Assembly (NCBI RefSeq): GCF_012396015.1
Contig: NZ_JAAXOQ010000026.1
Location: 1 to 63,851, forward strand
Direction of reading: 5' to 3'
DNA length: 63,851 bases
From: Tsukamurella spumae
GTDB taxonomy: Bacteria; Actinomycetota; Actinomycetes; Mycobacteriales; Mycobacteriaceae
Shown: positions 21,838 through 62,081 of the stretch, one piece after another
Layout: each line of letters begins with the position of its first letter
Position numbering within the stretch: position 1 is the stretch's first letter
The notes under the pieces: model-generated
Databases searched by the model: none
Told to the model about the DNA's origin: nothing
The model's input: only the letters and a program-made list of their open reading frames with translations
Made by a program: the position numbers and the translations under genes

Positions 21838-21918
21838 CGTCGCCATCCTTTTTCTGCGCGTTCCCGCCGGTCGGGGACTGTTCGCGATCGTACGGCAGGA
21901 CGAATTCCGACGAACCCC

Positions 21919-21962: not shown

Positions 21963-21989
21963 ACAATCACGATGAGGAGGTTGGTTCAT

Positions 21990-22414: not shown

Positions 22415-22418
22415 GACC

Positions 22419-23627
22419 ATGACCACCCTCGAACGGCCCAGCCCCGCCCCGGTCGGGCGACTCGTCGATCAGTTCGAACGCGGACTCGACGCCCCCATCT
22501 GCCTCACCTGGGAGCTCACCTACGCCTGCAACCTGGCGTGCGTGCACTGCCTCTCCAGCTCCGGTAAGCGCGATCCGCGTGAGCTGAGCACCGAACAGTG
22601 CAAGGCCATCATCGACGAACTGCAGCGCATGCAGGTCTTCTACGTCAACATCGGCGGCGGCGAGCCGACGGTGCGCCCGGACTTCTGGGAGCTCGTCGAC
22701 TACGCGACCGATCACCAGGTCGGTGTGAAGTTCTCCACCAACGGCCTGCGGATCACGCCCGAGGCGGCGCAGCGGCTCGCCGCGTCCGACTACGTCGACG
22801 TGCAGATCTCCCTCGACGGTGCCACCGCCGAGGTCAACGACGCGGTCCGCGGCCCCGGCTCCTTCGCCATGGCGGTCCGAGCCCTGGACAATCTCGCCGC
22901 TGCGGGCTTCAAGGACGCCAAGATCAGCGTCGTCATGACCCGCCAGAACGTGGACCAGCTCGACGAGTTCAAGGCCCTGGCCGACCGCTACGGTGCCACC
23001 CTGCGGATCACCCGGCTGCGGCCGTCGGGACGCGGCGCCGATGTCTGGGACGATCTGCATCCGCTGCCCGAGCAGCAGCGTCAGCTCTACGACTGGTTGG
23101 TGGCGCACGGCGACGGCGTGCTCACCGGCGACTCCTTCTTCCACCTGTCCGCATTCGGCGGCGCCGGCGGTGGCGGAGCCCTGCCCGGACTGAACCTGTG
23201 CGGCGCCGGCCGCGTGGTCTGCCTGATCGATCCGGTCGGCGACGTCTACGCCTGCCCGTTCGCGATCCACGAGAACTTCCTCGCGGGCAATGTCACGTCC
23301 GACGGCGGCTTCCAGGAGGTCTGGCAGAGTTCGGACCTGTTCCGCTCGCTGCGTGAACCGCAGAGCGCCGGGGCCTGCTCGCAGTGCAGCTTCTTCGACT
23401 CCTGCCGCGGTGGCTGCATGGCGGCCAAGTTCTTCACGGGCCTGCCCTTGGACGGGCCGGATCCGGAGTGCGTGCAGGGCTATGGCGAATCGCTGCTCGC
23501 CGGGGAGCGCAGCAAGCCCACCGCGAACAAGGACCATTCCCGCGGTGTGCCCCTCACGCTCATGACGCGGCCCCCCAGCCGTAGTTGCGACGAGAACCCC
23601 CTGACCGGCCTCACGCCGACCCCCTGA
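22419..23627 (+). CDS. mftC: MftC, radical SAM/SPASM maturase
   Basis: A 402-residue radical S-adenosylmethionine enzyme that oxidatively decarboxylates the C-terminal Tyr of MftA and then forms the Val-Tyr crosslink. The CxxxCxxC motif binding the SAM cluster is Cys37, Cys41 and Cys44 in TYACNLACVHC. The SPASM-type C-terminal domain supplies further cysteines in CGAGRVVCL, VYACPFA, CSQCSFFDSCRGGC and PECV, enough for two auxiliary clusters. An AGGAG ribosome-binding site precedes the ATG. The last 40 residues form a poorly conserved Pro/Arg-rich tail. Confidence 0.97.
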   Translation: MTTLERPSPAPVGRLVDQFERGLDAPICLTWELTYACNLACVHCLSSSGKRDPRELSTEQCKAIIDELQRMQVFYVNIGGGEPTVRPDFWELVDYATDHQVGVKFSTNGLRITPEAAQRLAASDYVDVQISLDGATAEVNDAVRGPGSFAMAVRALDNLAAAGFKDAKISVVMTRQNVDQLDEFKALADRYGATLRITRLRPSGRGADVWDDLHPLPEQQRQLYDWLVAHGDGVLTGDSFFHLSAFGGAGGGGALPGLNLCGAGRVVCLIDPVGDVYACPFAIHENFLAGNVTSDGGFQEVWQSSDLFRSLREPQSAGACSQCSFFDSCRGGCMAAKFFTGLPLDGPDPECVQGYGESLLAGERSKPTANKDHSRGVPLTLMTRPPSRSCDENPLTGLTPTP

Positions 23628-46078: not shown

Positions 46079-48006
46079 CGACATCGAATCCCACTGCCCA
46101 GCGGTACTTCTCGCTCGGGCTGCGGTCTCTCGCGGCGCGTACCGACACGAAGGAGCCCGCTCAGGCCTTCCGGCTCGCAGTGGAGGCCGACCCCACGATG
46201 TGCGATGCGTGGATGGGCCTGATGGCCGTCGACAGGACCCGACTCGCCGATCCGGCCGCCGCGCGAGGGCTGCTCGAATCGGCCCGCAACTTCGGTGCGG
46301 AACTCCGCCGCAACGGCATGGTCGTCGATCCCGCCGAGGGCGCCCTCGGGCTCAAGATCCCCGTGCAGATGGGGGTGGTCGAGCTCGGCATGCCGGTCAC
46401 CGATGTGATCTACGCCCGGGCCGGCGCAGCGGTGATCCTCGCCCAGGCCGGCTTCCTCGCCGAGGCGGCACAGGAGCTCACGCGCCTGCAGCGCGAGGTG
46501 ACCGCCGACTCGCCGGCGCAGCGGAACTACGTCCGATACCTGTGGATCTGCCTGCTGGGGCTCGCGCACCGCTGGCCGGAGATCCTTTCGACGGTCTCCG
46601 ACGGCCGCGAGCCGCTCTGGGTCTCTCCCGAGACCGACGGGGCCGTCCGCTTCTGGCAGCTCGGGGTCACGGCGCTCACGGCGCGGGCCCTCGTCGGGAC
46701 CGGCGACGCGCATCAGGCGCTCTCCGCGACCAGGACCGCGCTCGCGTCCGAGGACTTCAAACTCGTGCAGGCCAGCCTGATCGTGACGCAGGCCTATGCC
46801 CTGCGCGCCACGGGCGACGAGGAGGGCGCCGTCAAACTCGTGCGCGACGCCCGCGCGTGGATCTCCAACCGCGCCGACCTGGACCATGCGGCCGCCGGGG
46901 GATCGCTGGAGGTGGTCACCGCGCAGTCGATGAAGACCCGCAGCGACCCGTGGAACCCGTCGTCGGGCACGACCGCGCAGGAGATCGAGCAGGCGACGCT
47001 CGACCGGCAGCGCGATGTCGTCCTCGCCGACGCCTGGCGCGAGTTGGACGGGCTCGTGGGCAGCCCCGATGTGAAGTCGCAGATCCGTCGTCTCGCGTCG
47101 AAGGTCGAAATGGACCGGGAGCGCAAGCTGCTCAGCGAGGAGCTCGGGGAGGAGTACAGCGAGGAGGAGATGCGCCTGTCGGCGATCATCACCGGCCCGC
47201 CCGGCACCGGCAAGACGACCGGCGTGCGGATCCTGGCCAAGCTGTACTACGGCCTCGGCGTGATCGCCCGGCCCGAGGTGTTCGAGCACCAGCCGAGCGA
47301 CATGATGACGGGCTACGTGGGGCAGGCGGGCATCCGCACCAACAAGCTCATCGACGAGTCCCGGGGCGGCCTGTTCTTCCTCGACGAGGCCTACGGGCTG
47401 GTCGCGGGGGACGGCGAGGATCAGGCCTCGCGTTTCGGTCGCGAGGCGCTCGAGGCGCTGTTGGCCCGGATCGAGAACGAGGGTGACAAGCCGCTGCGCG
47501 AGAAGGTGGTCGTGGTGCTCGCCGGCTACGACGATGACATGAACCGACTCCTGCAGGTCAATCCCGGTCTCCCGCTGCGGTTCCCGACCCGGATCTCGTT
47601 CAGCTCCTTCACCCCGGAGGAACTGGTCGCGATCGCGGAGTCGGTGGCGGCGAAGAGTCGCGAGGAGCTGGGTGAGGGGGTGCGGGGCTACCTCGACGAG
47701 CACAACAAGCGGCTGGCGGAGGTGAGCGCGCTGGACCTCAAGGGGCGCATGTGTTCCGGCGTCGACCTCATGTCCAACGCCCGCTTCATGCGCACCGTGA
47801 TCTCGGGCGCGCGGGGTTTCCGCGACTTCCGGGTCAGTGGCATCGACCGTTCGATGCTCTCGACCGAGGAGAAGCGCGCCCTGCTGCGCACCTTGGAGTT
47901 GGAGGACGTCCGGCTCGCGTACGAGGAGACGCTGCGCGTATCACCGAACTTCCCGTGGTCGGAGTGGCACTTGTTGGCGGATTGGCAGGCGGAGGCGAAT
48001 GGCTGA
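46075..48006 (+). CDS. eccA: EccA, type VII secretion AAA+ ATPase
   Basis: A 643-residue cytosolic EccA. The N-terminal 280 residues are TPR-like helices that bind ESX substrates. The C-terminal CbbX-type AAA+ domain has Walker A GPPGTGKTT with Lys380, Walker B GGLFFLDEAYGL, and the pore-region segment GYVGQAGIRTNKLIDES. EccA helps release PE/PPE or Esx substrates from chaperones such as EspG. The ATG overlaps the stop of the large motif-repeat gene, and its stop overlaps eccB by eight bases, placing the unusual upstream gene in the same operon. Confidence 0.96.
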   Translation: MTTSNPTAQRYFSLGLRSLAARTDTKEPAQAFRLAVEADPTMCDAWMGLMAVDRTRLADPAAARGLLESARNFGAELRRNGMVVDPAEGALGLKIPVQMGVVELGMPVTDVIYARAGAAVILAQAGFLAEAAQELTRLQREVTADSPAQRNYVRYLWICLLGLAHRWPEILSTVSDGREPLWVSPETDGAVRFWQLGVTALTARALVGTGDAHQALSATRTALASEDFKLVQASLIVTQAYALRATGDEEGAVKLVRDARAWISNRADLDHAAAGGSLEVVTAQSMKTRSDPWNPSSGTTAQEIEQATLDRQRDVVLADAWRELDGLVGSPDVKSQIRRLASKVEMDRERKLLSEELGEEYSEEEMRLSAIITGPPGTGKTTGVRILAKLYYGLGVIARPEVFEHQPSDMMTGYVGQAGIRTNKLIDESRGGLFFLDEAYGLVAGDGEDQASRFGREALEALLARIENEGDKPLREKVVVVLAGYDDDMNRLLQVNPGLPLRFPTRISFSSFTPEELVAIAESVAAKSREELGEGVRGYLDEHNKRLAEVSALDLKGRMCSGVDLMSNARFMRTVISGARGFRDFRVSGIDRSMLSTEEKRALLRTLELEDVRLAYEETLRVSPNFPWSEWHLLADWQAEANG

Positions 48007-49600
48007 GACGACCCCGGATCCGTCGAGCGCGAAATCGGGCCTGCAGGAGCGGGTCCGCGGTTTCCGGCTCACCTCGAAGTATCAGAAGTCGGGCGAGGCC
48101 TACCTGCAGCGCCGCAACGAGGAGGCGCTGGTCCGCCGCGATACGCGGTGGATCGACGACGTGAAGAAGTACCAGGGGTCGCCCCTGTACATCGCGCTCG
48201 CCGCCGGCCTGATCGGGGTGCTGGGCTGCGTCATCGGCGCGGTGATCTTTCCCGCGGGCAAGGTCAAGGACGGCGACATCATCCAGGACAGCCAGACCGG
48301 TGCCCTGTACGTGAAGGTGGGCGACGCGCTCAGCCCGATCCCGAACGTGGTCTCGGGGCAACTGATCATCGGCTCCCCGGCGAAGCCGGTGCAGGCGAAG
48401 TCGTCCGAGATCGAGAAGCTGCCGCGCGGACCGATGGTCGGGATTCCCTACGCCCCCACGGTGATCCGCAACTCCGACAGCACCTCATCGCGATGGGCCA
48501 TCTGTGACAGCACGGCGACCGGATCGGCCGTCCCGCTCGACCCGTCGACCGGCCTGCCGACGACCGCCACCTCGGCGGTGAAGGTCACCGTCATCGGCGG
48601 GGAGCCGACGCCCGCCGACGGTACGGACGAACTGACCGGCGACCGCGCCCGCGTCGTGGCCTTCGACGGCCAGACCTGGCTGGTCTACGAGCACGACGGC
48701 GTGGTCGGCCGCGCGCGGCTCGACCTCGGCAACTCCGCGATCCGGGAGACCCTGGGCATCTCGATCGACCAGCGCGTGATCCCCATGTCGGCGGGCCTGT
48801 TCAACGCTCTCGCCGCGCGCGAGCCCATCGACGTCCCGCCGATCAGCGACCTCGGGAAGCCGGTGCGGTTCCCCAACACGGACAAGCTGCTGGTGGGAAC
48901 GACGCTGCGGGTACCGACCGTCGACGGGAGCTGGACCTACTACGTCGCCGCGGCCGACGGCATCCAGCAGATCGGGCAGACCGCGGCCGCCATCCTGCAG
49001 ACCGTCTCGCCCGTCAAGAGCGGAGTCGTGGAGACCGAGGCGGCCAAGGCGAACCAGTGGCCCAAGGTCGGCGGCCGGATCGCGGTGGACCACTTCCCGG
49101 CCGGCAAGGTGCGGATCGAGGACACCACCGCCGACCCGGTGACGTGCCTGGCCTGGGCGCACGACGGCGACAAGCCGACCGCTTCGGTGCGGGTCATGGT
49201 CTCCAGCGGGCTGCCGCTCACCCCCGAGCAGAACGCCGCCCGGATCCCGCTGATCGGGGCCGCGGGGTCGGCGGGCACCGTCGCCGACGATGTCTACCTG
49301 CCGGCCAACAGCGGCCGGTTCGTGTACGCCACGGGCTCCGCGAAGGACTCGCGCGAGCACAGCGGGGAGTTCTGGATCGCCGACACCGGGATCCGCTTCG
49401 GCCTCGACGATCAGGGCTCGAACGAGGTCGGATCCACGGCCAAGGCCTTGGGCCTGCGCAATCCCGTTCCTGCGCCGTGGACCATCATCAGCCTGCTGGC
49501 GCAGGGGCCGACGCTCTCGCAGGCGAGCGCATCCATCAAGCACGACGGCGGCGCGCAGGACCCGGTCGTGGCGAAGTTCGATCCGCGCGGCACGAAGTGA
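47999..49600 (+). CDS. eccB: EccB, type VII secretion membrane component
   Basis: A 533-residue EccB. The cytosolic N-terminus (LQERVRGFRLTSKYQKSGEAYLQRRNEEALVRRD) is canonical. A single transmembrane helix covers about 60-80, and the rest is the periplasmic R1-R4 repeat domain, with WAICDS and PVTCLAW supplying the family's disulphide cysteines. EccB helps form the periplasmic part of the hexameric ESX channel with MycP. The start overlaps eccA; eccC begins ten bases after the stop. Confidence 0.96.
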   Translation: MAETTPDPSSAKSGLQERVRGFRLTSKYQKSGEAYLQRRNEEALVRRDTRWIDDVKKYQGSPLYIALAAGLIGVLGCVIGAVIFPAGKVKDGDIIQDSQTGALYVKVGDALSPIPNVVSGQLIIGSPAKPVQAKSSEIEKLPRGPMVGIPYAPTVIRNSDSTSSRWAICDSTATGSAVPLDPSTGLPTTATSAVKVTVIGGEPTPADGTDELTGDRARVVAFDGQTWLVYEHDGVVGRARLDLGNSAIRETLGISIDQRVIPMSAGLFNALAAREPIDVPPISDLGKPVRFPNTDKLLVGTTLRVPTVDGSWTYYVAAADGIQQIGQTAAAILQTVSPVKSGVVETEAAKANQWPKVGGRIAVDHFPAGKVRIEDTTADPVTCLAWAHDGDKPTASVRVMVSSGLPLTPEQNAARIPLIGAAGSAGTVADDVYLPANSGRFVYATGSAKDSREHSGEFWIADTGIRFGLDDQGSNEVGSTAKALGLRNPVPAPWTIISLLAQGPTLSQASASIKHDGGAQDPVVAKFDPRGTK

Positions 49601-49610
49601 GGGATGGACG

Positions 49611-52600
49611 ATGAGTAGGCAGGTCTTCGAGCCCCCACTGCACCCGAAGAAGGAGCCCCGGGTCATCAAGAAGGAGGTGGAGGTCCGGACCCCGGACACC
49701 ATCGACGAGATCGACCCGCCCGGTAAGTGGCGCACGGTGATGATGCCGGTGGTCATGGTGGTCGCCGTGCTCGGCATGCTGTTCATGATGATCCGCATGA
49801 ATCGGGGCTTCAACCCGGTGATGCTGCTCATGCCGATGATGCTGCTGTTCGGCATGTTCGCCTACATGGGCGGAGGTCCCGGCGGCAGCGGCAGCAAGTC
49901 CAAGGGGCAGCTGCTGCACGACCGCAAGCAGGCGAGTCGCTCGATCGGCGCCTCGCGGGAGAAGGCCCTCGCCCGCGGCCGCAACTACCACGACGCGCTC
50001 GCGCACGCCTATCCGGACCCGGCCGTCGTGGCCTCGCTCATCGGCACCGAGCGGATGTGGGAGGTCGGCGACGGAGACCCGGAGCGCCGGAGCCGTTTCA
50101 CCGCGGCCCGGTACGGCCGGGGTCGCATCGTGCCCAAGGCCAAGCTGCTCACCCCCGAGGCGCCGGACGGCGAGTTCCTGGACCCGGTGCAGTGGACCGA
50201 GACCGTGAAGTTCCTGCACACGCACTCCACCGTCGCCGACATGCCGGTCGCCTTCACCCTGCGCAACCTGCCCGTGCTCGGCGTGGGCGGCGATCGGGAG
50301 CGCAGCGCGGGCATGGTGCGCGCGATGCTCAACCACCTCGCGATCACCCACGGTCCGGACCGGCTCCGCATCGCCGTCGTCGCCGACGCCCCCGACGGCG
50401 GTCGCTGGGAGTACCTGAAATGGCTACCGCAGGTGCAGCATCCGACGCTCATCGATGCGCTCGGATCGCGCCGCATGATCTACGGCAACTGGACCGACTT
50501 CCTCGAGGACCTCGCCGGCGGTGATGAACAGCCGGCCGCCGAGGGGGACCGCATCGTCGACTACGCCCGCCCGTTCACCACCGAGTCGGAGGTGACCGGC
50601 CGCACCCGGCACACCGTCGTGATCGTGGAATCCGCGGAGCGGGCCCGGATGACGGACCAGGCGATCGCCTCCCTCGCGGACGTCACCTGGGTCCTCATCG
50701 CCCCGCCCGACGGCGTCATCGACTCCTTCCCGCACGCCGTGCTCCTCGACGTCGACCAGGCGGGCATCGTCACCCGCTGGGACTCCGACCTCCCGCTGGA
50801 GGCGCCCAAGGAGATCGCCCGCGCCGACTACGTCGACCTCGTGGATGCGCACACCACCGCCCGGAAGCTGGCCCGCTGGGAGCTCGAGACCACCGCCTCG
50901 CTGCTGTCCAAGGAGCGGCACGACACCGGTCGCGATTGGGCGAACCTCGTGCAGGTCGACGATCCCGGGGCCATCGACGTCGTCGACTTCTGGCAGCGCA
51001 TCAAGCGGTTCGACGACCCCCGTCGACTCAACTTCCCGATCGGGTTCGCGCCCGACGGGACCCGGATCTTCCTCAACATGCGCGAGGCGAGCCAGGGCGG
51101 CACCGGTCCGCACGGCGAGATGATCGGCACGTCGGGCTCGGGCAAGTCGGAGTTCCTGCGCTGCCTCGTGCTCGACGCGTGCCTGTTCCATCCGCCGTCG
51201 ATGCTGAACCTGCTCCTGGTGGACTTCAAGGGCGGCGCGACCTACCAGGGCATGGAGGACATCCCGCACGTCGCGGCCGTGGTCACCAACCTCGAGAAGT
51301 CCGAGAGCATGGTCGACCGCATGATGGAGGTCATCACCGGCGAGCTCAAGCGGCGCCAGCAGCTCTTCGACAGTGCTGCCGCGAAGTACCCGTCGTTCAA
51401 CATCATCGGGCTCACCGAGTACGAGAAGGCCCGCGAATCGGGGCACTGCCCCGACCTCGAGCCGATGCCCGCGCTGCTCGTGCTCATCGACGAGTACACC
51501 GAGCTCCTCGAGGCCAAGCCCGAGTTCGTCAACATCTTCAGCCAGATCGGGCGCGTCGGCCGGTCGGTGGGTGTGCACCTGCTGCTCGCGTCGCAGAACG
51601 CGGAGATGGCCCGCTCCCGCGGCCTCGAGTCGAACATCCACTACCACATCGCACTTCGCACCGGCACCGCCGGCGATTCGCGTGCGGTGATCGGTGTGCC
51701 CGACGCGAAGAACCTGCCCGGCAAGCCCGGCAACGGCCTGATCAAGACGCTCCACGAGGACGACCTGATCCGGTTCTACGCGGGATTCACCGGCAAGCCC
51801 TACTTCGCGCCGGAGGCGGCCCCCGAGCCCGTCGTGCGCGAGGTGGTCCAACCGACCGCCGACGATCTGTCCTCGCGCGGCTTCACGGCCCGTCGCGTGG
51901 ACATCCCGGACCTCGAGGTCGAGATCATCGAGGACGACGAGATCGAGCGGACCGAGGAGGAACTGCTCGCGGCGCCGACGGTGTTCACGGTGGTCAAGGA
52001 GCTGCTGACGCAGGCCCCCGCCCGCCCGGCCTACAAGCCGTGGCTGCCGGAGCTGACCTCGACCACGCTGGACACGGTGGCACCGTCGTTGAGCGCGGAC
52101 GAATGGGTGGCGCCGAAGGTGACCACCCCCGCCACCCTCAAGGCGCCCTTCGGCGTCTTCGACGACCCCGCCAAGCACCAGCAGCCCGTGTGGGAGCTGG
52201 ACCTCTCGGGCGGCCAGGGCAATGTGCTCATCTACGGTGCGCCGCAGAAGGGCAAGACCACCGCGGCGATGACTCTGGTGACCTCGCTGGCGCTGACCCA
52301 CTCCCCGGAGCAGGTGCAGTTCTTCGTGGTCGACTACACCGGCGGCGGCTGGATGCGGCTCGAGGATCTGCCGCACGTCTCGCGGATCGCGACCCGCGCC
52401 GAGGAGGACGCGATCAACCGGATCGTGTCCCAGATGTCGGACCTGATCGACCAGCGTGTCAAGCTCTTCCGCAAGTACCGGGTCAACTCGATGGCCGAGT
52501 ACCGCCGGCTGCGCAGCGACCCCGAGTCGGCGGTGACGGCCGAGGACGCCTTCGGCGATGTCTTCATCGTGATCGACGGCTTCGACGCCGCCGTCACCGA

Positions 52601-53831
52601 GGGCGGTGTGTTCGAGGACAAGGTCGCCGTGCTGGAGGCGCTGGCCTCGGGTGCGCTGAACTACGGCGTCCACTTCGTGGTCACCACCGCGCGGAACACG
52701 GTGCTGCGCGGCCTCGCGAGCCACATGCACACCATCATCGAGGGCCGGGTGTCCACCGCGAGCTACGACATGTCCGTGGTGAACTCGCAGCGCAACAAGG
52801 TGGTTCCCGACCGGGCCGGCCACGTGATCACCACCGATCGCGAGCTGCTGGCGTTGGTGGCGCTCCCGCGCGCCGACGGCGACAGCTCACCCGAGACGCT
52901 CAGCGCCGGCATCGAGGAGGTGGTCGAGCGGATCCGCCGGGCCAACACCTCCGGCGCGACGGCGCCGAAGCTCCTCGCGCTCCCGGAGGTCGTGCTCCAG
53001 CAGGACCTGTTCTCCGTGCTTCCCGCCGCCGCGAGCGAGCGGGAGCGGGTGCGCCTTCCCTTCGGCGTGCGCGAGACCGACGGCGGCCTCGCCGTCGCGG
53101 ACTTCGGGCGCGAGGCGCACATGTACGTGGTCGGCGAGAGCGGTTCGGGCCGCTCGGCCCTCGTGCACACGCTCATCGAGGCGATCAGCCGTCGGTACCC
53201 CACGATCGACGACGGTGCCATCGCGCTGCTCGATCCCAAGCGCGTGCACCGCGGCGCCTTCGCGCCGAACCCGAAGAACCTCGGGCTGCACGGCTCCGAC
53301 CTCTACGACTTCCTGCGCAGATGGCAGGACAAGCTCGTCGAGTGGATGGGGGAGGGCGAGTCCGACCCGAACGAGGTCACCTACCGCCGCGTCCCCGACG
53401 CGGCCGACAGCGCGGCCCTCGCGCGACGGGACTGGTGGACCGGGCCCGAGGTGTTCCTCATCATCGACGACTACGACGCGGTCGTGGCGCGCGGCGACCG
53501 CACCAACCCCCTCACCCAGACCGTGAAGCTGATGAACGACGGTGTCATTCGGGGCTTCCACGTGATCGTCGTCCTCAACGACACCGAGTTCCTCTACAAG
53601 GCCAGCTCCGACCCGTTGATCCAGTTCCTGGACACGCACAGCTCGATGGCGCTGGCGCTGTCGGCGGACAAGTTCAACCTCAACATCGCAGGTGAGCGGG
53701 GGCAACGCTTCGGCATCCCCGGCCGCGGCCGGTTCCATCCGGGCCGAGGGGCGGCGTCGGACATCGTCCAGGTCGCCTGGAACGGGGTGCGGCGGGACGA
53801 GTCGGTCGCCGAGGAGGATGTTTGGGGATGA
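49611..53831 (+). CDS. eccC: EccC, type VII secretion motor ATPase (single polypeptide)
   Basis: A 1406-residue EccC with two N-terminal transmembrane helices (about 42-85) and three FtsK/SpoIIIE-type ATPase domains. Walker A motifs are GTSGSGKSEF (Lys512), GAPQKGKTTAA (Lys882) and GESGSGRSAL, where the third lysine is Arg1181. Walker B in the first domain is LLVLIDEYTELLEA. In studied systems the first ATPase drives secretion, while the others bind substrate signal sequences and often have weakened motifs. This matches. The arrangement, unsplit with PE/PPE genes after it, is ESX-3/5-like rather than ESX-1. Confidence 0.96.
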   Translation: MSRQVFEPPLHPKKEPRVIKKEVEVRTPDTIDEIDPPGKWRTVMMPVVMVVAVLGMLFMMIRMNRGFNPVMLLMPMMLLFGMFAYMGGGPGGSGSKSKGQLLHDRKQASRSIGASREKALARGRNYHDALAHAYPDPAVVASLIGTERMWEVGDGDPERRSRFTAARYGRGRIVPKAKLLTPEAPDGEFLDPVQWTETVKFLHTHSTVADMPVAFTLRNLPVLGVGGDRERSAGMVRAMLNHLAITHGPDRLRIAVVADAPDGGRWEYLKWLPQVQHPTLIDALGSRRMIYGNWTDFLEDLAGGDEQPAAEGDRIVDYARPFTTESEVTGRTRHTVVIVESAERARMTDQAIASLADVTWVLIAPPDGVIDSFPHAVLLDVDQAGIVTRWDSDLPLEAPKEIARADYVDLVDAHTTARKLARWELETTASLLSKERHDTGRDWANLVQVDDPGAIDVVDFWQRIKRFDDPRRLNFPIGFAPDGTRIFLNMREASQGGTGPHGEMIGTSGSGKSEFLRCLVLDACLFHPPSMLNLLLVDFKGGATYQGMEDIPHVAAVVTNLEKSESMVDRMMEVITGELKRRQQLFDSAAAKYPSFNIIGLTEYEKARESGHCPDLEPMPALLVLIDEYTELLEAKPEFVNIFSQIGRVGRSVGVHLLLASQNAEMARSRGLESNIHYHIALRTGTAGDSRAVIGVPDAKNLPGKPGNGLIKTLHEDDLIRFYAGFTGKPYFAPEAAPEPVVREVVQPTADDLSSRGFTARRVDIPDLEVEIIEDDEIERTEEELLAAPTVFTVVKELLTQAPARPAYKPWLPELTSTTLDTVAPSLSADEWVAPKVTTPATLKAPFGVFDDPAKHQQPVWELDLSGGQGNVLIYGAPQKGKTTAAMTLVTSLALTHSPEQVQFFVVDYTGGGWMRLEDLPHVSRIATRAEEDAINRIVSQMSDLIDQRVKLFRKYRVNSMAEYRRLRSDPESAVTAEDAFGDVFIVIDGFDAAVTEGGVFEDKVAVLEALASGALNYGVHFVVTTARNTVLRGLASHMHTIIEGRVSTASYDMSVVNSQRNKVVPDRAGHVITTDRELLALVALPRADGDSSPETLSAGIEEVVERIRRANTSGATAPKLLALPEVVLQQDLFSVLPAAASERERVRLPFGVRETDGGLAVADFGREAHMYVVGESGSGRSALVHTLIEAISRRYPTIDDGAIALLDPKRVHRGAFAPNPKNLGLHGSDLYDFLRRWQDKLVEWMGEGESDPNEVTYRRVPDAADSAALARRDWWTGPEVFLIIDDYDAVVARGDRTNPLTQTVKLMNDGVIRGFHVIVVLNDTEFLYKASSDPLIQFLDTHSSMALALSADKFNLNIAGERGQRFGIPGRGRFHPGRGAASDIVQVAWNGVRRDESVAEEDVWG

Positions 53832-53913: not shown

Positions 53914-54201
53914 GTGGGCCTGAACGTGGCGCCTATACAGCTCTTGGCAGGAACCAACGAGGTCCTGGCGAACGTCGCCACCACCTCGGGCTTGATCGGT
54001 GGTGCCGCCGGCACCATCGGTGCGGTGGTGCCCGCGGGCGCCGACGACGTGTCGCTGCTGGTCTCGGCGGGCTCCGCCGCGCACGCGGCGAACTTCCTCG
54101 CGACCTCCGTGGTCGATCATGCGGAGGTGGCCCAGTACGGCGTCAGCCTCGCGGCCGTCGCGTCGACCTACATCATGGCCGACAACGCCGTCCAGTTCTG
54201 A
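53914..54201 (+). CDS. PE-family protein
   Basis: A 95-residue PE protein: an N-terminal PE helical hairpin with no extra C-terminal domain. It ends with the general ESX secretion signal YxxxD as Tyr86-Ile-Met-Ala-Asp90, only five residues from the C-terminus. The usual Pro-Glu pair at the N-terminus is not present; homology rests on length, Ala/Gly-rich helices, the YxxxD and the following PPE gene. It probably pairs with the PPE protein and EspG for secretion. The GTG start has a GGGGA site. Confidence 0.85.
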   Translation: MGLNVAPIQLLAGTNEVLANVATTSGLIGGAAGTIGAVVPAGADDVSLLVSAGSAAHAANFLATSVVDHAEVAQYGVSLAAVASTYIMADNAVQF

Positions 54202-54216: not shown

Positions 54217-55599
54217 GTGACCTTTCCAGCGCTTCCTCCCGAGGTCAACGTCGGCCGCCTGATGTCCGGGGCCGGCCCTGCGCCCGCCACGGCGGCAGCC
54301 GCCGGCTGGGCCTCGGTGGCGGCGTCGGTGAGCGCGCGCTCGGTCTTCCTCAGCTCGCTGCTCCCGCGCCTCGCGGCGTCGTGGCAGGCTCCGGAGACGG
54401 CGCTGATGACGCGCAATGTCGCGATGTACATGGCGCACAACGAGGCCCTGCGGGTGCAGGCGCTGCTCGCCTCCACCCGGCACACCAAGCAGGCGGCGGA
54501 CTACTCGGCTGCACTGACCGGGATGGCCCAGCTGCCGGAGATCGCGCAGAACCACATCACCAACGGGGTGCTCAACGCGACCAACTTCCTCGGCGTGAAC
54601 ACCGCGGCCATCGCCGCGAACGAGGCGCAGTACGCGGGCATGTGGGCGCAGAACGCCTCGATGATGGCGGTGTACCTGGCGAACTCGGTCGCCAACATGA
54701 CCTTCGAGCCCTTCATCCCGCCCAAGCCCATGGCCACGGCCATCGGCGTGCCGATCCCCGCCGCCGCTGCCGGCGCCGCGTCCGTCGGCGATGCCGTGGT
54801 CACGAAGATGACCCTCGCGGCGCAGGGCGCGCAGGCCACGGCCAGCATGCTGGCGATGCGCGTCGCGGGCGGCGTGCTCACCGCCACCAAGCTGGCCCAG
54901 ACCGTCGCGGTCAACGCGCAGCGGTTCGAGCAGGTCGCGTCGAACGCGGCCACCGCGGAATCGCAGTCGCGCGACACCCCGGGCGCCGTCCGGACCACCA
55001 CCGGGCAACAGCTGGGCGGCGCACTCGTGCAGCAGCTCGGCGGTGCCGTGCCGCAGGTCGCGGGCGTCGCGGGCGGCGTCGCCGCCGCCGGGGCCCAGCA
55101 GGCCCTCCAGGGCGCGGGCGGCAGCGCCCAGGTCGTCGGTGGCGGCGTGGGCGGCGGTGTCGTCTACCAGCCGATGAGTTCGCTCATCGGCGGCATCAAC
55201 GCCGAGAACCGCACCAGCACCGTCGGGTACTTCGGAGCCCGGCCCGGCTCGCCCACGCTCGAGCGGATGTCCCGCGGCGAGCGGTCCACGAGTTCGGCGG
55301 CGGCCCTCCGGGCCGCGCCGGGAGCGCCGACCGCACTGCCGCAGGTGGCGGCACCGTCGAACTGGATGACGGACGGCCTGACGGTGGCGCCCCCGCCCCC
55401 GCCGGTCCCGCGGGTGGCCGTCGAGCCGCTGCGCCCGATCCTGCCGACCGGGACCAGTGCGCCCGTCGCGCGGTCGAAGGGCAAGCAGCGCGAGCGGATC
55501 GTGGTGCCGGACACCGCGGCCGTCCCGATCTATCAGGACTCGGTGCCCGAGTTCGAGTCCGTCCCCGTCGACGTGCCGTCGAGTGGGGAGGCGCGCTGA
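54217..55599 (+). CDS. PPE-family protein
   Basis: A 460-residue PPE protein. The opening FPALPPEVNVGRLMSG contains the Pro-Pro-Glu, and SWQAPE at 55-60 sits where the WxG turn of PPE proteins lies (Gly replaced by Ala). The helical PPE domain spans about 1-175. The C-terminal half is Gly/Ala/Val-rich, then a Pro-rich disordered tail. Secreted with the preceding PE partner, recognised by EspG through the tip of the PPE domain. It starts 15 bases after the PE stop. Confidence 0.92.
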   Translation: MTFPALPPEVNVGRLMSGAGPAPATAAAAGWASVAASVSARSVFLSSLLPRLAASWQAPETALMTRNVAMYMAHNEALRVQALLASTRHTKQAADYSAALTGMAQLPEIAQNHITNGVLNATNFLGVNTAAIAANEAQYAGMWAQNASMMAVYLANSVANMTFEPFIPPKPMATAIGVPIPAAAAGAASVGDAVVTKMTLAAQGAQATASMLAMRVAGGVLTATKLAQTVAVNAQRFEQVASNAATAESQSRDTPGAVRTTTGQQLGGALVQQLGGAVPQVAGVAGGVAAAGAQQALQGAGGSAQVVGGGVGGGVVYQPMSSLIGGINAENRTSTVGYFGARPGSPTLERMSRGERSTSSAAALRAAPGAPTALPQVAAPSNWMTDGLTVAPPPPPVPRVAVEPLRPILPTGTSAPVARSKGKQRERIVVPDTAAVPIYQDSVPEFESVPVDVPSSGEAR

Positions 55600-55649: not shown

Positions 55650-55955
55650 ATGCCCCCGCAGATCTACGACCTGAACACCATCTCGCACGCCGCCGGTACC
55701 GCGAAGACCCACGACGTCGCCGCGATGACACTGGCGAACATCAAGTTCGTGCGCACCACCGCCGAGGCCTATCGCGCCGCCAACGCCGGCGACACCACCA
55801 ACAAGGCCTCCGCGCACATGGAGGAACTGATCGCCGTGTGCAACGCCGAGCAGCAGAAGCTCGAGGCCGTGGCCGAGGCACTGGGTCGTAACGGCGGCCT
55901 CATCACCAGCACCGACGGCGACGCCGGCGGCCTGTTCACCGGCTACGTCGTCTAG
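55650..55955 (+). CDS. esxG: EsxG-like WXG100-superfamily protein
   Basis: A 101-residue helical-hairpin protein in the esxG position. The turn expected to hold WxG reads NAGDTTNKAS, comparable to the GESS turn of M. tuberculosis EsxG, which also lacks Trp. A single Cys is at 64. No C-terminal YxxxD/E is visible: the end is GGLFTGYVV. It would form a heterodimer with the following EsxH-like protein. A GGAGGA site lies seven bases before the ATG. Confidence 0.88.
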   Translation: MPPQIYDLNTISHAAGTAKTHDVAAMTLANIKFVRTTAEAYRAANAGDTTNKASAHMEELIAVCNAEQQKLEAVAEALGRNGGLITSTDGDAGGLFTGYVV

Positions 55956-55987: not shown

Positions 55988-56293
55988 ATGACCTCCGCCG
56001 AGCGCATCACAGTCAACTACGCGAGCTACGACGGCACGTCCGCCGGGCTGGGCAAGGCCGCGGCCGTGGCCGACGCCAACATCGCCGAGCTGACGGCGAA
56101 CAACACCGCGAACCTCAACACGGGCAACTGGGTCGGTGTGGACCAGGAGAGCTACCAGCACGTGCACGAGGTGTGCCTCAAGGCCAACGAGAACCTCGCC
56201 ATGGCGATCCGCAAGACCGGCGTGAACATCCAGACCGCCGCCGCGATCCATCAGGCCGGCCAGGCGCAGGCCGCGGGCCTCTACGGCGTCTAG
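55988..56293 (+). CDS. esxH: EsxH-like WXG100 protein
   Basis: A 101-residue WXG100 protein with Trp48-Val-Gly50 in the turn between two helices. It ends AAGLYGV. The only YxxxD pattern is at the N-terminus (YASYD, 11-15), not in the C-terminal helix extension where the export signal normally lies. It is the partner of the upstream EsxG-like protein, 32 bases away with a GAAGGAG site. In mycobacteria EsxG/H are ESX-3 substrates linked to iron acquisition. A very strong hairpin follows the stop. Confidence 0.92.
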   Translation: MTSAERITVNYASYDGTSAGLGKAAAVADANIAELTANNTANLNTGNWVGVDQESYQHVHEVCLKANENLAMAIRKTGVNIQTAAAIHQAGQAQAAGLYGV

Positions 56294-56353: not shown

Positions 56354-57217
56354 GTGCTGCGCGAGGAACAGGCGGCGAAGCTGTCCGCCTTCGCCGTCGA
56401 CATCGACGAACTGCTGCTGTTGATGCGGCTGTCGGACGTCACGGAGTTGGCGCCGATCGTCCTGGCGGTGCACCCCACCGTCTACCGGCCGGACGATCAG
56501 CTGATGGTCGACCTCGCCGTTATGCCCGGCCTGCTGACCGCGGGTCTGGTCGACGGCACGGGGCGCGTCGATGCCCAGGTGGCCCAGTGGCTGCGGGTCC
56601 TGCAGTCGCCGTCCGCCGAGCTCGCGATCCGCATCTTCGACGGTGACGCGGTGCTCCGCGGGGCGGCCGTGCGCCGCGCCGACCAGGTGGTCATCGCGTT
56701 CCGCAACGACGATCAGCTCACGGTCCAGGGCTTCACGACCGACCGCGAGGACTTCGACGCGACGATCGTGGAACCGTTGTGGCGGGTGCTCGGCGCCCGG
56801 GAGCCGGCCGAGTTCGACTCGCTCACCGTCGACGCCGCCGAGCTCGCGGAGATCGTCGCGACCTTCGATCCCTCCGTGGGGGACGCCCGCAGCGAGCGGG
56901 CGATCCGCGGCAGGCTGCGGGAGCACGACCTCTCGCCGCAGACGATCGACCTTCTCGTGCAGGCCGCGCGGTACTCCGGTCGACGGGCCGAAATCGTCTA
57001 CCACCGGGCCGATTCCAGTGGCGTTCGGGCGCAGGCACGGTGGGCCGTCGGTGTGATGGACACCGACGCCGGCCGCGTGCTCTCGACGACGAAGCGCGGA
57101 TCCGACGGCGTGCTCGACGTGACGATCAGTCCGGGAACGCGGCGGAGATTCTCCGAGGGACTCGTGGAACTGGTCGAGCGCGGCGGCTCCGCCGGGTGGT
57201 TCGACACGGTGAGCTGA
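56354..57217 (+). CDS. espG: EspG, ESX substrate chaperone
   Basis: A 287-residue EspG-family protein, the cytosolic chaperone that binds PE/PPE dimers specific to its own ESX system. Recognised by the LSAFAVDIDELLLLMRLSDVTELAPIVL opening, the central strand region VVIAFRNDDQLTVQGFTTDREDF, and RAEIVYHRADSSGVRAQARWAVGVMDTDAGRVLSTTK in the C-terminal half. The GTG start has a GGAGGAG site nine bases upstream. Position between esxH and the MinD-like gene is as in ESX-3. Confidence 0.9.
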   Translation: MLREEQAAKLSAFAVDIDELLLLMRLSDVTELAPIVLAVHPTVYRPDDQLMVDLAVMPGLLTAGLVDGTGRVDAQVAQWLRVLQSPSAELAIRIFDGDAVLRGAAVRRADQVVIAFRNDDQLTVQGFTTDREDFDATIVEPLWRVLGAREPAEFDSLTVDAAELAEIVATFDPSVGDARSERAIRGRLREHDLSPQTIDLLVQAARYSGRRAEIVYHRADSSGVRAQARWAVGVMDTDAGRVLSTTKRGSDGVLDVTISPGTRRRFSEGLVELVERGGSAGWFDTVS

Positions 57218-57238: not shown

Positions 57239-57295
57239 TGACCTGCCCGTGTATTAATCTGCAAAACATACCGAAGAGTAAGAGAGGTGCAGTCC

Positions 57296-59074
57296 ATGAG
57301 CGACGCAGCTACGAACGTTCGCGTGCCCTTTGTGCCGCAGAACGGACATGGTGAGAACACCACCACGGCCCCGGTGCTGCCCTCGACCGATACCGCTGCC
57401 GCGCCGGTGATCCGGCCGGCCGCCGCCGGACCGGTGTCCGAGCCGAGCGGCGAGTGGGAGGAGCCCGCGCTGCCCGAGGTCGATGATCTCGACGTGGCGG
57501 GTGTCGTCCCGACCGTCGCGCCGACCTCGCCCCTGGTCGTGCCGGGAGACGAGCGGCCCACCGCGGAGCAGCCCGTGATCGAGGACGAGCCGGTGGGCCC
57601 GTCCACGCCGGGCGCGTCCATCGAGGCCGACGGTACGCCGACGTCCGACGCGAAGGCCGAGGACTCGACGGCGGAGGGGGAGGACTCGGACCAGTCCGAT
57701 GCCGCGGCGACCGACGAGCCCGCGCTCCCCGCGCCCGCGGCGGTTCCCGGCGAGAAGGCCGCGCCGAAGCCCGTCGCCGCGCAGGTGCCCGCGCAGCAGA
57801 GCGCCGCCGTGGCGCCGTCGCCCGTGCCGGTCCCGCAGCAGCAGTGGCCGGGCCAGAACGGGTTCTCGGGCCCGCAGGCGCCCGCCGCGCAGGCCGGTCC
57901 GGTCCAGCAGGCGCCCTTCCAGCCCGTACCGCCCACCGGTCAGTTCCAGGCGCCCCAGGCGTCCGGCCAGATCCAGCGACCGGCGTCGCCGCAGCCCTTC
58001 GGGCAGCAGGGCGCGCCCGTGCAGAACGGCCAGGCTCCGCTCGCCCCGCCGCAGCACCAGCAGGCCCCGATGCATCCGATGGGCGAGTCGCTCGCGGCGC
58101 CCATGTCGACCGCGTCCTCCTCGTTCAACCAGCAGATCCGGTTCTCGGACGCTGCGGTCCGCGTGTCCGGCTGGCGCGCCTTCCTGCGCCGGATGGGCCT
58201 GGACATCGGCCCCAGCGCGAACGATCAGGAACACGCCGAGCTGGTGCACCGCATCCGCGTTCCCAAGAACAAGTTCCACGTCACCAGCGTGTTCGCCGAC
58301 AACGCGGGCGGCACGCTCATCGTCGGCGTTCTCGGCCAGATCCTCGAGCGCACCCGCGCCGACAATGTCGTCGCCCTCGACCTCGATCCCGACGGTGGCG
58401 ACCTCGACCAGGTGACCGCGTGGCACCAGGGCGGGTCGACGGCGCGCACCCTCATCCAGCAGAGCGACCTGTCCGACCGCAACCAGGTCGACAAGCACCT
58501 CGCCGTCACCTCGACCAACCTGCACGTGCTCCCGAGCCCGTGGCGGTTCAACGGTCGCGATGTCACCGATTACGACGACGTCCTGGACCTGTACTCGATC
58601 TTCCGCCCGCACTACAGCCTCGCGCTGGCCGATGCGGGCCGCGGCCTGCAGACCCAGACGGGCACCGGTGTGCTCGAGATCTCGTCCGCGCTGATCCTGC
58701 CCGCCTCGGCCACCACCCGCGGCGTGCGCAAGGTGGCCGCGACGATCGACTGGCTGCGGCACCACGGCTGGCACGGTCTGCTCGCGAACACGATCGTGGT
58801 GATCAACCACACGAAGCGTCGCGGCAGCGTCTCGGTCGAGCAGTTCGACGAGCTGTTCCGCGCCGGCCAGAAGCTGCGCGTCCACGAGATCCCGTACGAC
58901 CCGCACCTCGACTCCGATCAGCCGATCGACCTGGACCTGCTCCGCAAGGGCACGATCCGGGCCTTCGAGGAGCTGGCCGCGGACTTGGCCGACGGGTTCA
59001 ACTCGGGCTACGAGCCGCCGGCCGCGCAGAAGCTGGCCGAGCTGCAGCAGGTGCGCACGAGCGAGGGACGCTAA
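57296..59074 (+). CDS. EspI/MinD-like protein with degenerate P-loop
   Basis: A 592-residue protein: residues 1-275 are a disordered Pro/Gln/Ala-rich region, and 280-592 a MinD/ParA-type domain as in ESX-1 EspI. The phosphate-binding loop, normally KGGxGKTT, reads VFADNAGGTLIVG near 332-344 with no lysine at all. The A' strand (VVALDLDPDGGDLDQ) and the B strand (SLALADAGRGLQT) keep their Asp residues. Nucleotide hydrolysis is therefore doubtful, although binding or a scaffold role is possible. ATG 57296 is chosen, with GTG 57287 as alternative. It sits between espG and eccD, where ESX-1 has espI; ESX-3 of M. tuberculosis has no such gene. Confidence 0.85.
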   Translation: MSDAATNVRVPFVPQNGHGENTTTAPVLPSTDTAAAPVIRPAAAGPVSEPSGEWEEPALPEVDDLDVAGVVPTVAPTSPLVVPGDERPTAEQPVIEDEPVGPSTPGASIEADGTPTSDAKAEDSTAEGEDSDQSDAAATDEPALPAPAAVPGEKAAPKPVAAQVPAQQSAAVAPSPVPVPQQQWPGQNGFSGPQAPAAQAGPVQQAPFQPVPPTGQFQAPQASGQIQRPASPQPFGQQGAPVQNGQAPLAPPQHQQAPMHPMGESLAAPMSTASSSFNQQIRFSDAAVRVSGWRAFLRRMGLDIGPSANDQEHAELVHRIRVPKNKFHVTSVFADNAGGTLIVGVLGQILERTRADNVVALDLDPDGGDLDQVTAWHQGGSTARTLIQQSDLSDRNQVDKHLAVTSTNLHVLPSPWRFNGRDVTDYDDVLDLYSIFRPHYSLALADAGRGLQTQTGTGVLEISSALILPASATTRGVRKVAATIDWLRHHGWHGLLANTIVVINHTKRRGSVSVEQFDELFRAGQKLRVHEIPYDPHLDSDQPIDLDLLRKGTIRAFEELAADLADGFNSGYEPPAAQKLAELQQVRTSEGR

Positions 59075-59080: not shown

Positions 59081-60652
59081 ATGGTCTTCCCGATCACCCC
59101 GGAGCCCGCCGCCGGTACCCAGCAGTCGGGCCCCGGGCGGTCCGCCGTCCCCGAGCAGGTGCGTGTCCTGATCGAGGTGGGGGAGAACTCCGTCGAGCGG
59201 AGCCTGTTGGCCCGCCGTCGGCTGTCCGTCGTGATGGATTCGGTGATCCCCGGGCTGGAGCAGATCTTCCCGGACCACGACTTCTCGACGACCGGAGCGT
59301 GGACCTTCGCCCGCGAGGGCGGGACCACGCTGGCGCGCGACAAGTCGCTCGGCGACGCGGGCGTGCTCGACGGTGACCGCCTGATCCTTGCGGAGACCTT
59401 CTCGACGCAGACCTTCCGCCCGCTCATCGAGAGCACCGCCGACGCGATCCAGGAGTTCTGCCGGCAGCGCTTCCGCCGGTTCGAGTCGGCGACGGCGCGG
59501 GCGCTCGGCCTCGTCGCGCTGGTGCTCGGTGCGGGGGTGTTCTCGGCGCTGGTGCTCACCGCGTGGTTCGCGCATTCCAGTGCCCTGTGGTGGTTCCCGG
59601 TGGCGGCGCTCGGTGCGATCGCGGTGGTCCTGGCCGCCCTCTCCGCCGACCGGCAGTACGGCGCGCGCCAGGTGGCCTACGCCCTGCAGATCGCTGCGGG
59701 CCCGGTGCTGTTCGCGGCCGGGTTCGTCCTCATCCCGCCGGACGGGGGCGCCGACGGTGCCTTCACCGCCGCCAACGTCCTCGTCGGCGCGCTGTTCGCG
59801 CTGATCGGCGTGATCGTGCTGGGCCGCGCGAGCGGGCTCGGCGCGGCGGTCCTCGCGGGCCTCGGTCTCGCGGCCGCCGTCACGGTGGTGGCGAGCGCGC
59901 TGTTCGCGTACACGCCGCTGGACCGCCCGGCCATCCCCGCGATCGGTGTGATCGGCGGCCTCCTGCTGGCGAACTGGGCGCAGGGCTGGGCCCTGATGCT
60001 GGCCCGGGTGCGGCCCGACACGCTCCCGCCGCCGGGCGAGGACATCGACCGCAACGAGCTCGACGCGGCGTACCACGTGGACACCTTCGACGACGAGAGC
60101 ACCACGGAGCTCGCTCGCGCGCAGGAGAACACCGGCCTCGAGCGCAAGGCGCGCACCGCGGCCAAGCTCCTGACCGGGTTCTACGTCGCGATCGCGGGCG
60201 TGCTGGTGGTCTCCGCGCTCACCGTCCTGGTGCCGCACAGCCACTACTTCTGGGGCGAGGTCGTGATCGCGGCGCTGGTCTCGGTGATCTGCGTGCTGCG
60301 CGGGCGCACCCTCGACGACCGCGTGCACGCGACCGTCTTCTTCGTCGCCGGATTCCTCGTGGCGGCCGGCCTCGCGGTGATCCTGGTGACCGCCGTCGAC
60401 TCCGATCTCGCGCGCCTGGCGGTGATCGTCGTGAGCGCGATCGCGCTCGCCGCCTTCGGCACCGGCGCGCTGCTGCTCGCGGATCGCGTGTCCACCGACC
60501 CGGCGGGACACGGCCGCCCGCTGTCCGCGCGTCTGATGGGGCGCATCGAGTTCGGGGAGAAGTTCGCGATCTTCGCCGTGGTCATGCTCGCGCTGTGGAC
60601 CACCCGGGTGTTCGCGTTCATGCGTGAACTCGACCTGTCGTTCCTGAAGTAG
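59081..60652 (+). CDS. eccD: EccD, type VII secretion membrane channel component
   Basis: A 523-residue EccD. The cytosolic N-terminus (about 25-110) is the ubiquitin-like domain (VRVLIEVGENSVERSLLARRRLSVVM, then GVLDGDRLILAE). About eleven transmembrane helices follow from residue 145, interrupted by a charged cytosolic loop near 325-365. EccD dimers surround EccB and EccC in the ESX pore. The start lies six bases after the MinD-like gene and the stop seven bases before mycP. Confidence 0.94.
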   Translation: MVFPITPEPAAGTQQSGPGRSAVPEQVRVLIEVGENSVERSLLARRRLSVVMDSVIPGLEQIFPDHDFSTTGAWTFAREGGTTLARDKSLGDAGVLDGDRLILAETFSTQTFRPLIESTADAIQEFCRQRFRRFESATARALGLVALVLGAGVFSALVLTAWFAHSSALWWFPVAALGAIAVVLAALSADRQYGARQVAYALQIAAGPVLFAAGFVLIPPDGGADGAFTAANVLVGALFALIGVIVLGRASGLGAAVLAGLGLAAAVTVVASALFAYTPLDRPAIPAIGVIGGLLLANWAQGWALMLARVRPDTLPPPGEDIDRNELDAAYHVDTFDDESTTELARAQENTGLERKARTAAKLLTGFYVAIAGVLVVSALTVLVPHSHYFWGEVVIAALVSVICVLRGRTLDDRVHATVFFVAGFLVAAGLAVILVTAVDSDLARLAVIVVSAIALAAFGTGALLLADRVSTDPAGHGRPLSARLMGRIEFGEKFAIFAVVMLALWTTRVFAFMRELDLSFLK

Positions 60653-60659: not shown

Positions 60660-62081
60660 GTGCGCGCACTCCCACAGACGGCCCTCGCCCTGGCCGCCAC
60701 CGTCACCGTCGTCATCGCCGGGAGCTGGGCACCCGCCGTGTCCGGCGCCGTCGTACCGCCCGTCGCCGATATCGGTGGCGCTCCGCCCGATTCCGACGGC
60801 CCGGAACGCCCGCTGCGGTTCAACAACCCCCGCTGCGTGGAGCCCGGCGTGCTGCCGAACTCGAACCTGGCGGCGCCGCCGGCACCGTCGAACACCCTGC
60901 GGATCGACGAGGCGCACAAGTTCTCCACCGGAGCGGGCGTGACGGTGGCGGTGCTCAGCACCGGCGTGCGGCCGCAGGCGCGGCTGCGCGGGCTGGACGG
61001 TGCGGGCGACAACATGGCGACCGCGGATCGTGGTCTGGTGGACTGCGATTCGACCGGGACGCTCGTGGCGGGCATCGTCGCCGCACAGCCCGCCGCGGGC
61101 GACGGCTTCGTGGGGGTGGCGCCGGACGCGCGGGTCCTCTCGATCCGGGTCGACTCCTCGGCGTTCTCGCTGCAGAACACACCCGCCGCAGACGCCGACC
61201 CCAACCAGAGCCGCGCGGCGGTCACCACCCGCAGCATCGCCCGCGCGATCGTGCGCGCCGCCAACCGCGGCGCCAAGGTCATCGTGGTGCCGGAGCCGGT
61301 GTGCATGGCCGCCGACAACCAGTTCCGCCAACGCGAGATCGGCGGCGCGGTCGCCTACGCGCTGCGCGCCAAGGACGCACTGGTGGTCGTGGGCGCCGGC
61401 GCCACGGACCGCAAGGGCAGCAGCGTCGGGGCGAACGACTGCAAGGCCAATCCCGACCCCGACCCGGGACAGCCCGACGATCCCCGCGGTTGGCGGGCCG
61501 TGACCACCGTCGCCACCCCGAACTGGTTCGACGGGCAGGTCCTGTCGGTGGGGGCCACCGACGCGCAGGGCACGCCGCTGGTCGGCTCGTTGAACGGCCC
61601 GTGGCTCGACGTGTCCGCCCCCGGCGCGGGACTGATCTCGCTGAGCTCGCGCGGCGGCGACGGCGTGGTGAACGGCGTCCCGTCGGACCGCACGCTGGTG
61701 CCCTTCGCGGGCCCGGAGTACGCGGCGGCCTACGCGGCCGGTACCGCGGCGCTGATCCGCTCCCGGTACCCGCACCTCAAGGCGACGGAGGTCGCGGCCC
61801 GCATGGTCGCGACGGCGCACGCCCCGGGGCGCGGCACCGACAACAAGGTGGGCCGCGGCCTCATCGACCCGGTCGCGGCGCTGACCGCGAACGTGCCGGA
61901 CGTGGACACCGACATCGACCCGCAGTCGGTGCAGAAACTGCTCGTGCCGCCGCCCCCGCCCGAGCCGGACACGCGGCCGCGGCGCACCGCCGCGATCGTG
62001 GCCGGCGCGGGCGTGATCGCGCTGGTGGTGCTCGGTGGTGTCGTGGCGCTGACCCGCCCCGGCCGGAAGCGGAGGGCGTGA
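60660..62081 (+). CDS. mycP: MycP mycosin, predicted catalytically inactive
   Basis: A 473-residue subtilisin-fold mycosin with an N-terminal signal peptide (1-30) and a C-terminal membrane anchor (444-466). The fold is intact: NNPRCVEPGVL, a DCD-TGTLVAGIVAAQPAAGDGFVGVAP core, DPRGWRAVTTVATPNWF and WLDVSAPG are typical. The catalytic positions are not: Asp is Ser100 (VAVLSTGVRP), His is Thr132 (DCDSTGT), the oxyanion Asn is Ala248 (GAGATD), and Ser is Glu353 (FAGPEYAAAY). The reading frame is open, with full length and normal codon use, so it is not a decayed gene. Mycosins also stabilise the ESX membrane complex independently of proteolysis, and that role probably remains. Confidence 0.93.
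   Translation: MRALPQTALALAATVTVVIAGSWAPAVSGAVVPPVADIGGAPPDSDGPERPLRFNNPRCVEPGVLPNSNLAAPPAPSNTLRIDEAHKFSTGAGVTVAVLSTGVRPQARLRGLDGAGDNMATADRGLVDCDSTGTLVAGIVAAQPAAGDGFVGVAPDARVLSIRVDSSAFSLQNTPAADADPNQSRAAVTTRSIARAIVRAANRGAKVIVVPEPVCMAADNQFRQREIGGAVAYALRAKDALVVVGAGATDRKGSSVGANDCKANPDPDPGQPDDPRGWRAVTTVATPNWFDGQVLSVGATDAQGTPLVGSLNGPWLDVSAPGAGLISLSSRGGDGVVNGVPSDRTLVPFAGPEYAAAYAAGTAALIRSRYPHLKATEVAARMVATAHAPGRGTDNKVGRGLIDPVAALTANVPDVDTDIDPQSVQKLLVPPPPPEPDTRPRRTAAIVAGAGVIALVVLGGVVALTRPGRKRRA

Follow-up and report, generated by a model that had tools for sequence, protein, structure and literature searches.

Why ESX secretion systems carry a protease whose activity secretion can do without is an open question, on which an ESX locus of Tsukamurella spumae bears. 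This locus lies within the 63,851 nucleotides of contig NZ_JAAXOQ010000026.1 (assembly GCF_012396015.1; hereafter the window), and its mycP gene codes for a mycosin in which the residues used for catalysis by subtilisin-like enzymes have been replaced. In the available portions of earlier work, MycP1 and MycP5 are reported to be needed for complex stability and secretion, with active sites that are dispensable (PMC5082899; commentary in PMC5156307), and a MycP5 trimer is described as capping the EccB5 chamber with its active sites turned towards the lumen (PMC8131196). The split between a proteolytic and a structural role, which a first, sequence-only reading of the window had invoked, can therefore be found in print (PMC5082899, PMC8131196). 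We hold with high confidence that the Tsukamurella protein is non-catalytic and functional, and consider it likely that it is a mycosin which has become a pseudoprotease in nature: exported, anchored and normally folded, it would cap or stabilise the EccB ring without cleaving substrates.

A mycosin with replaced catalytic residues

The mycP frame is open across 473 codons, with a GTG start and GAGGGG upstream, and the codons that had been read as Ser, Thr, Ala and Glu in place of catalytic residues are all in frame as claimed (Table 1). In alignments with MycP1, MycP3 and MycP5, which are to sequences of crystal structures, residues 100, 132, 248 and 353 occupy the columns that hold Asp, His, Asn and Ser in MycP1 (4kb5; motifs VAVID, DCDAHGT, AAGNT and GTSFSAAY). 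We conclude that the residues have been replaced and not displaced. Where an active subtilase (peptidase family S8) has an Asp-His-Ser triad and an oxyanion Asn, this protein has Ser-Thr-Glu and Ala248, each of which would lie at least two base substitutions away from the usual codons. The claim that every residue needed for catalysis is replaced holds for Asp, His and Ser; it needs a qualification for the oxyanion Asn, which is not universal among mycosins, because MycP5 (7np7) has Asp at that position.

Sixteen genomes of the genus were examined, and orthologues were found in 13: that of the window and 12 others at 71-87% identity. The replacements are common to all of them, with the single exception of a Ser for Ala248 in one, and Ser100, Thr132 and Glu353 are fixed even though the codon at each varies. 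Median dN/dS (the ratio of non-synonymous to synonymous substitution rates) is 0.18 across the 78 pairs, close to the 0.14 seen across 66 pairs of triad-bearing ESX-4-like mycosins (12 of 14). As a reference for conservation we used 89 mycosins chosen for having an intact triad, among which 65 columns are at least 95% conserved; the only three of these that are altered in all 13 orthologues are the triad itself, and 58 of the other 62 are unaltered throughout. Given how the 89 were selected, a Fisher test on these columns is partly circular and carries no weight here. All four cysteines (59, 129, 215 and 261) are likewise invariant, and presumably form disulphides as two conserved pairs. Across the 13 orthologues, invariant columns are more frequent in the Asp, His and Ser motifs than over the entire core, and less frequent in the oxyanion motif.

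Structural modelling, which had been proposed as a check, gave a predicted fold that resembles MycP1 and MycP3, N-terminal extension included. A model helix at residues 6-21, in a region of low confidence, corresponds to the putative signal peptide, and a transmembrane-like segment is found near the C terminus (Table 1). Where motifs, signal peptide, membrane anchor and frame had all been called intact, the frame, the C-terminal helix and the Asp, His and Ser motifs stand, the helix modelled with low confidence points to a signal peptide, and the oxyanion motif is less conserved. With its predicted fold kept, its catalytic residues lost and purifying selection acting on it, the protein has the hallmarks of a pseudoprotease.

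We envisage an ancestor of most Tsukamurella species in which the triad and the oxyanion Asn were all exchanged for other residues, with selection keeping the fold from then on. The signal peptide would direct export of the protein and the C-terminal helix would anchor it. With an ordinary mycosin fold it would, like MycP5, cap and stabilise the ring that EccB forms in the periplasm within the same ESX membrane complex, and it would cleave no substrate. The absence of activity is suggested by the sequence, and the assembly into an EccB-MycP cap with a stabilising role by analogy; on that analogy, the simplest reading is that the cap role has been kept and the protease lost. The sequence-only reading had spoken of a natural fixation of the structural role alone. 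A natural, fixed loss of residues is indeed what we observe, in a protein that is otherwise retained and predicted to fold like MycP1 and MycP3; the structural role itself is drawn from mycobacterial work.

Several observations weigh against this interpretation. The position of MycP5 Trp523, which is buried at the EccB5 interface, is Ala in all 13 orthologues (the position being mapped by count), and its EccB partner at that interface, Trp437, is Phe in the EccB of the window. Gly115, in a near-invariant column, is Ala in 12 of 13. Conservation of the oxyanion motif (0.46) falls below that of the core, and that of the His motif is 0.80 as against 0.93 in a triad-bearing sister group. Finally, no orthologue was found in three of the 16 genomes (G010, which is 83% complete, G011, and G012, which is in 890 contigs), leaving the idea that this mycosin is essential to the genus unsupported. 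The lost Trp interface is not decisive, because Ala is also found at the Trp523 position in 13 of the 14 triad-bearing ESX-4-like mycosins and Phe at the Trp437 position in EccB3; EccB Trp469 is kept in the window. Co-evolution of the EccB-MycP tryptophan interface was considered as a mark of the triad-less form and proved not to be specific to it.

A second mycosin in most genomes

The best-placed alternative is that substrates are still processed in trans by a second, triad-bearing mycosin, perhaps in mixed trimers. A search of the window genome for another mycP, as had been suggested, identified two genes matching PF00082: the triad-less mycosin, and a mycosin on contig 25 that possesses Asp, His, Asn and Ser and adjoins an EccC and an EccB, in a locus that we take to be ESX-4-like. 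All but one of the 13 genomes that carry the triad-less mycosin have a triad-bearing partner too (its neighbourhood was inspected in the window genome only), and the authors of PMC5082899, in the portion available, prefer to explain their MycP5 active-site mutant by other proteases, perhaps mycosins among them, acting redundantly. However, the two mycosins of the window genome are only 39% identical, and in the remaining genome, G003, the triad-less mycosin is the sole PF00082 match (E 0.001). G003 also lacks an ESX-4-type EccC, its EccC-type matches being the window-type locus, a third, mycosin-free locus and one weak FtsK-like place. The part matching contig 25 positions 6096-22514 is replaced there by about 9.3 kb, in which there is no match to the EccB or MycP of the window. 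Because synteny flanks this stretch on both sides within one contig, the absence reflects replacement and not an assembly gap. It follows that at least one Tsukamurella species keeps the triad-less mycosin alone, ruling out an obligatory second mycosin as a general rule; the second mycosin about which the sequence-only reading had asked exists in the window genome without being required everywhere, and we regard processing in trans as unlikely.

The replacement in G003 spans positions 6167-15456 of a region on contig 1 (119000-138900; L266), where a remnant of about 70 bases from the 3' end of eccC is left. A third locus resembling a type VII secretion system was noted on contig 22 of the window genome (36000-55900; L166, positions 8219-17070), with an EccC of 1401 amino acids, an EccD-like protein, two open reading frames (ORFs) of 98 and 96 amino acids and a DUF4185 protein. 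As a hidden source of mycosin it was rejected, with no match to the window MycP, EccB or EccE in the 34 kb inspected. Matches to its EccC and EccD also occur in G003 (L167, near a contig end) and G015 (L170). Two Tsukamurella genomes, G011 (L145) and G015 (L146), possess divergent additional mycosins with intact triads, that of G011 in an ESX locus of similar gene order whose EccC is only about 27% identical.

Triad loss across the mycosin family

In a 108-row tree built from 106 mycosin genes plus two references, the 13 triad-less Tsukamurella mycosins group as a single clade (SH-like approximate likelihood-ratio test support 100). This clade sits, at a point where long branches meet, beside 40 triad-bearing mycosins, 39 of them from one genus (g23) that appears to be Nocardia-like; one g23 locus (L151) has a matching order of eccA, eccB, eccC, espG, a gene at the espI place, eccD, mycP and eccE. 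Eight sister-group genes (L047, L086, L088, L095, L101, L103, L115 and L119) keep the triad with Asp, Gly, Thr or Gln in place of the oxyanion Asn. Across the 106 genes, an incomplete triad is seen in all 13 genes of the Tsukamurella locus and in 4 of the 12 genes of the MycP3 clade, but in none among 14 Tsukamurella ESX-4-like, two other Tsukamurella, 40 sister-group, 12 MycP1-like and 13 other mycosins. In searches of 401 genomes of the family, for which four candidates were scored per genome, the best matches listed from outside the genus were about 50% identical, and the 17 best examined keep Asp, His and Ser.

The MycP3 genes were assigned from the best PDB match of L112 (4kg7, titled MycP3 of ESX-3) and from the EccD adjoining L099, whose best match is EccD3; the genus that bears them is taken to be Mycobacterium. 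Among the matches listed, 44 of 100 distinct MycP3 genes (loci L171-L260, L099, L112, L121 and L122) lack Asp, His or Ser, which is not a frequency, since the sequences were ranked by likeness to the triad-deficient L112 and the sample therefore leans towards such genes. Usually one triad residue is lost, most often Ser, and sometimes two. The affected genes do not form a single clade: with the catalytic columns masked, a tree gave 11 triad-state changes by parsimony, or at least 7 counting starred branches only, although this was a quick tree in which 35 of 98 inner branches are weak and the counts cannot separate loss from gain. (A 101st gene, L259, has an intact triad and stands outside the tree; L171 and L112 are one gene, and L171 was omitted.) dN/dS was 0.11 and 0.16 in two triad-less groups and 0.14 in a triad-bearing one (12, 12 and 9 genes). 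A less biased motif count over 148 evenly drawn genomes, not limited to MycP3, identified 14 genomes in which Gly stands where Ser is expected and 58 with a Ser-like codon (WSN), with no overlap; at least 11 of the 14 sites with Gly lie within the MycP3 matches listed. One genome (G238, contig 1: 2502000-2521900; L147) carries a second ESX-3-like locus with eccA, eccB, eccC, an EccD-like ORF and a mycosin lacking the full triad (DRNG), with no room between eccC and eccD for PE, PPE, Esx or EspG genes.

The losses in Tsukamurella and in MycP3 suggest that a mycosin's main job is to hold the secretion machine together. More broadly, we lean towards the view that proteolysis is an optional extra which ESX lineages have repeatedly discarded, the defining role being structural: Tsukamurella would have fixed loss of the full triad, at least one species being left without any active mycosin, and many mycobacteria would have lost MycP3 catalysis several times independently. 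An active site lost from every orthologue found in a genus, a species that has only the triad-less mycosin, and recurrent MycP3 losses together provide natural material for separating the cap from the protease. Neither automatic annotation, which names the T. tyrosinosolvens orthologue 'serine protease mycosin', nor inhibitor ideas directed at the mycosin active site can assume an active enzyme.

The former active site

It could also be that the former active site has been rebuilt, either as a pocket that guides or gates substrates in the lumen, or as a different hydrolase using Ser100, Thr132 or Glu353. The fixation of these three residues despite codon variation fits this idea, as do the strongly conserved motifs around them and the more varied replacements in triad-deficient MycP3 genes (mostly Ser to Gly, but also Ser to Asp, His to Arg or Asn, and Asp to Gly). 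Yet 198 of 331 core columns (60%) are invariant among the 13 orthologues, so that three fixed residues are unremarkable; there is also no invariant His nearby and the oxyanion Asn is gone. We regard a rebuilt site as unlikely. An active protease with displaced catalytic residues, in favour of which we found no point, is very improbable, and we set it aside because the Asp, His and Ser motifs align to MycP1 without gaps and the sole invariant His, residue 387, is outside all the former catalytic motifs. Gene decay or sequencing errors at the four sites, for which nothing speaks beyond the losses themselves, can hardly be credited given recurrence in 13 genomes, an open frame, and the dN/dS and near-invariant columns described above.

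The ESX locus

The locus runs in the order eccA-like, eccB, eccC, PE-like, PPE, two small Esx-like genes, espG-like, a Pro/Ala-rich gene, eccD, mycP and eccE, and can be read up to the contig end, which falls inside eccE (Table 1). The related-locus search returned seven loci, six from Tsukamurella records and one weak KSB1 match that was not used. An annotated T. tyrosinosolvens record has the identical gene order with a complete eccE. The description of an intact ESX locus is therefore upheld for gene order, with the reservations that eccE is incomplete in the window and that the EsxB-like protein lacks a WxG motif. The true start of eccB probably lies further in than 47837, and that of eccC is probably near 49611, the T. 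tyrosinosolvens eccC having 4221 bases. No Pfam or NCBIfam match was found for the Pro/Ala-rich protein, which we presume to be EspI. Upstream of the eccA-like gene, an ORF of 1154 amino acids (42614-46078) has no family match above cut-off; in T. tyrosinosolvens this place holds a gene about as long, annotated as hypothetical. The T. tyrosinosolvens record is labelled 'plasmid 12', a label we do not trust because the record also carries ordinary metabolic genes, and a plasmid origin of the locus was rejected.

Table 1. Features of the ESX locus and of its mycosin in the window.
Feature	Position	Strand	Evidence
eccA-like AAA ATPase	46021..48006	+	TIGR03922 330.7 bits, under cut-off 466.65; Walker A GPPGTGKT
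eccB	47837..49600	+	PF05108 409 bits; PDB 7np7 EccB5 223.7 bits
eccC, single ORF for EccCa and EccCb	49290..53831	+	TIGR03924 704.8 bits, TIGR03925 486.8 bits; Walker A at 613 and 983
PE-like protein, YxxxD near end	53914..54201	+	94% to gene annotated 'PE domain-containing'
PPE protein	54217..55599	+	PF00823 126 bits
EsxB-like small protein, no WxG motif	55650..55955	+	ORF; named by position
EsxA-like small protein, WVG	55988..56293	+	ORF; named by position and motif
espG-like	56354..57217	+	PF14011 150.9 bits
Pro/Ala-rich protein at espI place	57287..59074	+	26% and 32% matches at equivalent place, loci L145 and L151
eccD	59081..60652	+	TIGR03920 168.9 bits, cut-off 94.95
mycP, mycosin without catalytic residues, 473 amino acids	60660..62081	+	TIGR03921 313 bits, cut-off 278.75
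Ser100 codon AGC, catalytic Asp position	60957..60959	+	In-frame reading; alignment to MycP1; Ser in 13/13 Tsukamurella orthologues
Thr132 codon ACC, catalytic His position	61053..61055	+	In-frame reading; alignment to MycP1; Thr in 13/13
Ala248 codon GCC, oxyanion Asn position	61401..61403	+	In-frame reading; alignment to MycP1; Ala in 12/13, Ser in 1/13
Glu353 codon GAG, nucleophile Ser position	61716..61718	+	In-frame reading; alignment to MycP1; Glu in 13/13
C-terminal transmembrane-like segment, residues 446-464	61995..62051	+	Hydropathy 2.69; model helix 439-465
eccE, 3' part beyond contig end	62081..63851	+	TIGR03923 217 bits, cut-off 108; 84% to complete T. tyrosinosolvens eccE

Comparison with known systems

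The dual role of mycosins, laboratory active-site mutants and subtilisin-like pseudoproteases such as CspC are already known. Mycosins that lack the triad naturally are not mentioned in the available portions of the literature searched, which included PMC11593635, PMC12421883, PMC10924467, PMC1779556 and PMC3482391 and left aside the MycP3/MycP1 structure papers (PMC3859186, PMC3682577). A study of ESX evolution that lists T. paurometabola used MycP in concatenated sequences, and the word 'catalytic' does not occur in its available text (PMC4791881).

The Tsukamurella mycosin shares family TIGR03921, fold, N-terminal extension, C-terminal anchor and placement between eccD and eccE with MycP1 and MycP3 (4kpg, 4kb5, 4hvl, 4kg7) and MycP5 (7np7), but whereas 4kb5, 4hvl, 7np7 and 4kg7 keep Asp, His and Ser, it has none of them. 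The M. marinum mutants MycP1 S354A and MycP5 S461A, which according to the available text of PMC5082899 still support secretion, likewise have no working active site; these were man-made at one residue, whereas in Tsukamurella evolution has altered four residues, in every orthologue found. CspC of Clostridioides difficile, as described in the available portion of PMC6636752, is also a subtilisin-like pseudoprotease with a non-catalytic job, but one in germination signalling with no secretion system. In triad-deficient MycP3, too, catalytic residues have been lost naturally while the frame stayed open, in this case in another ESX type and usually at one residue.
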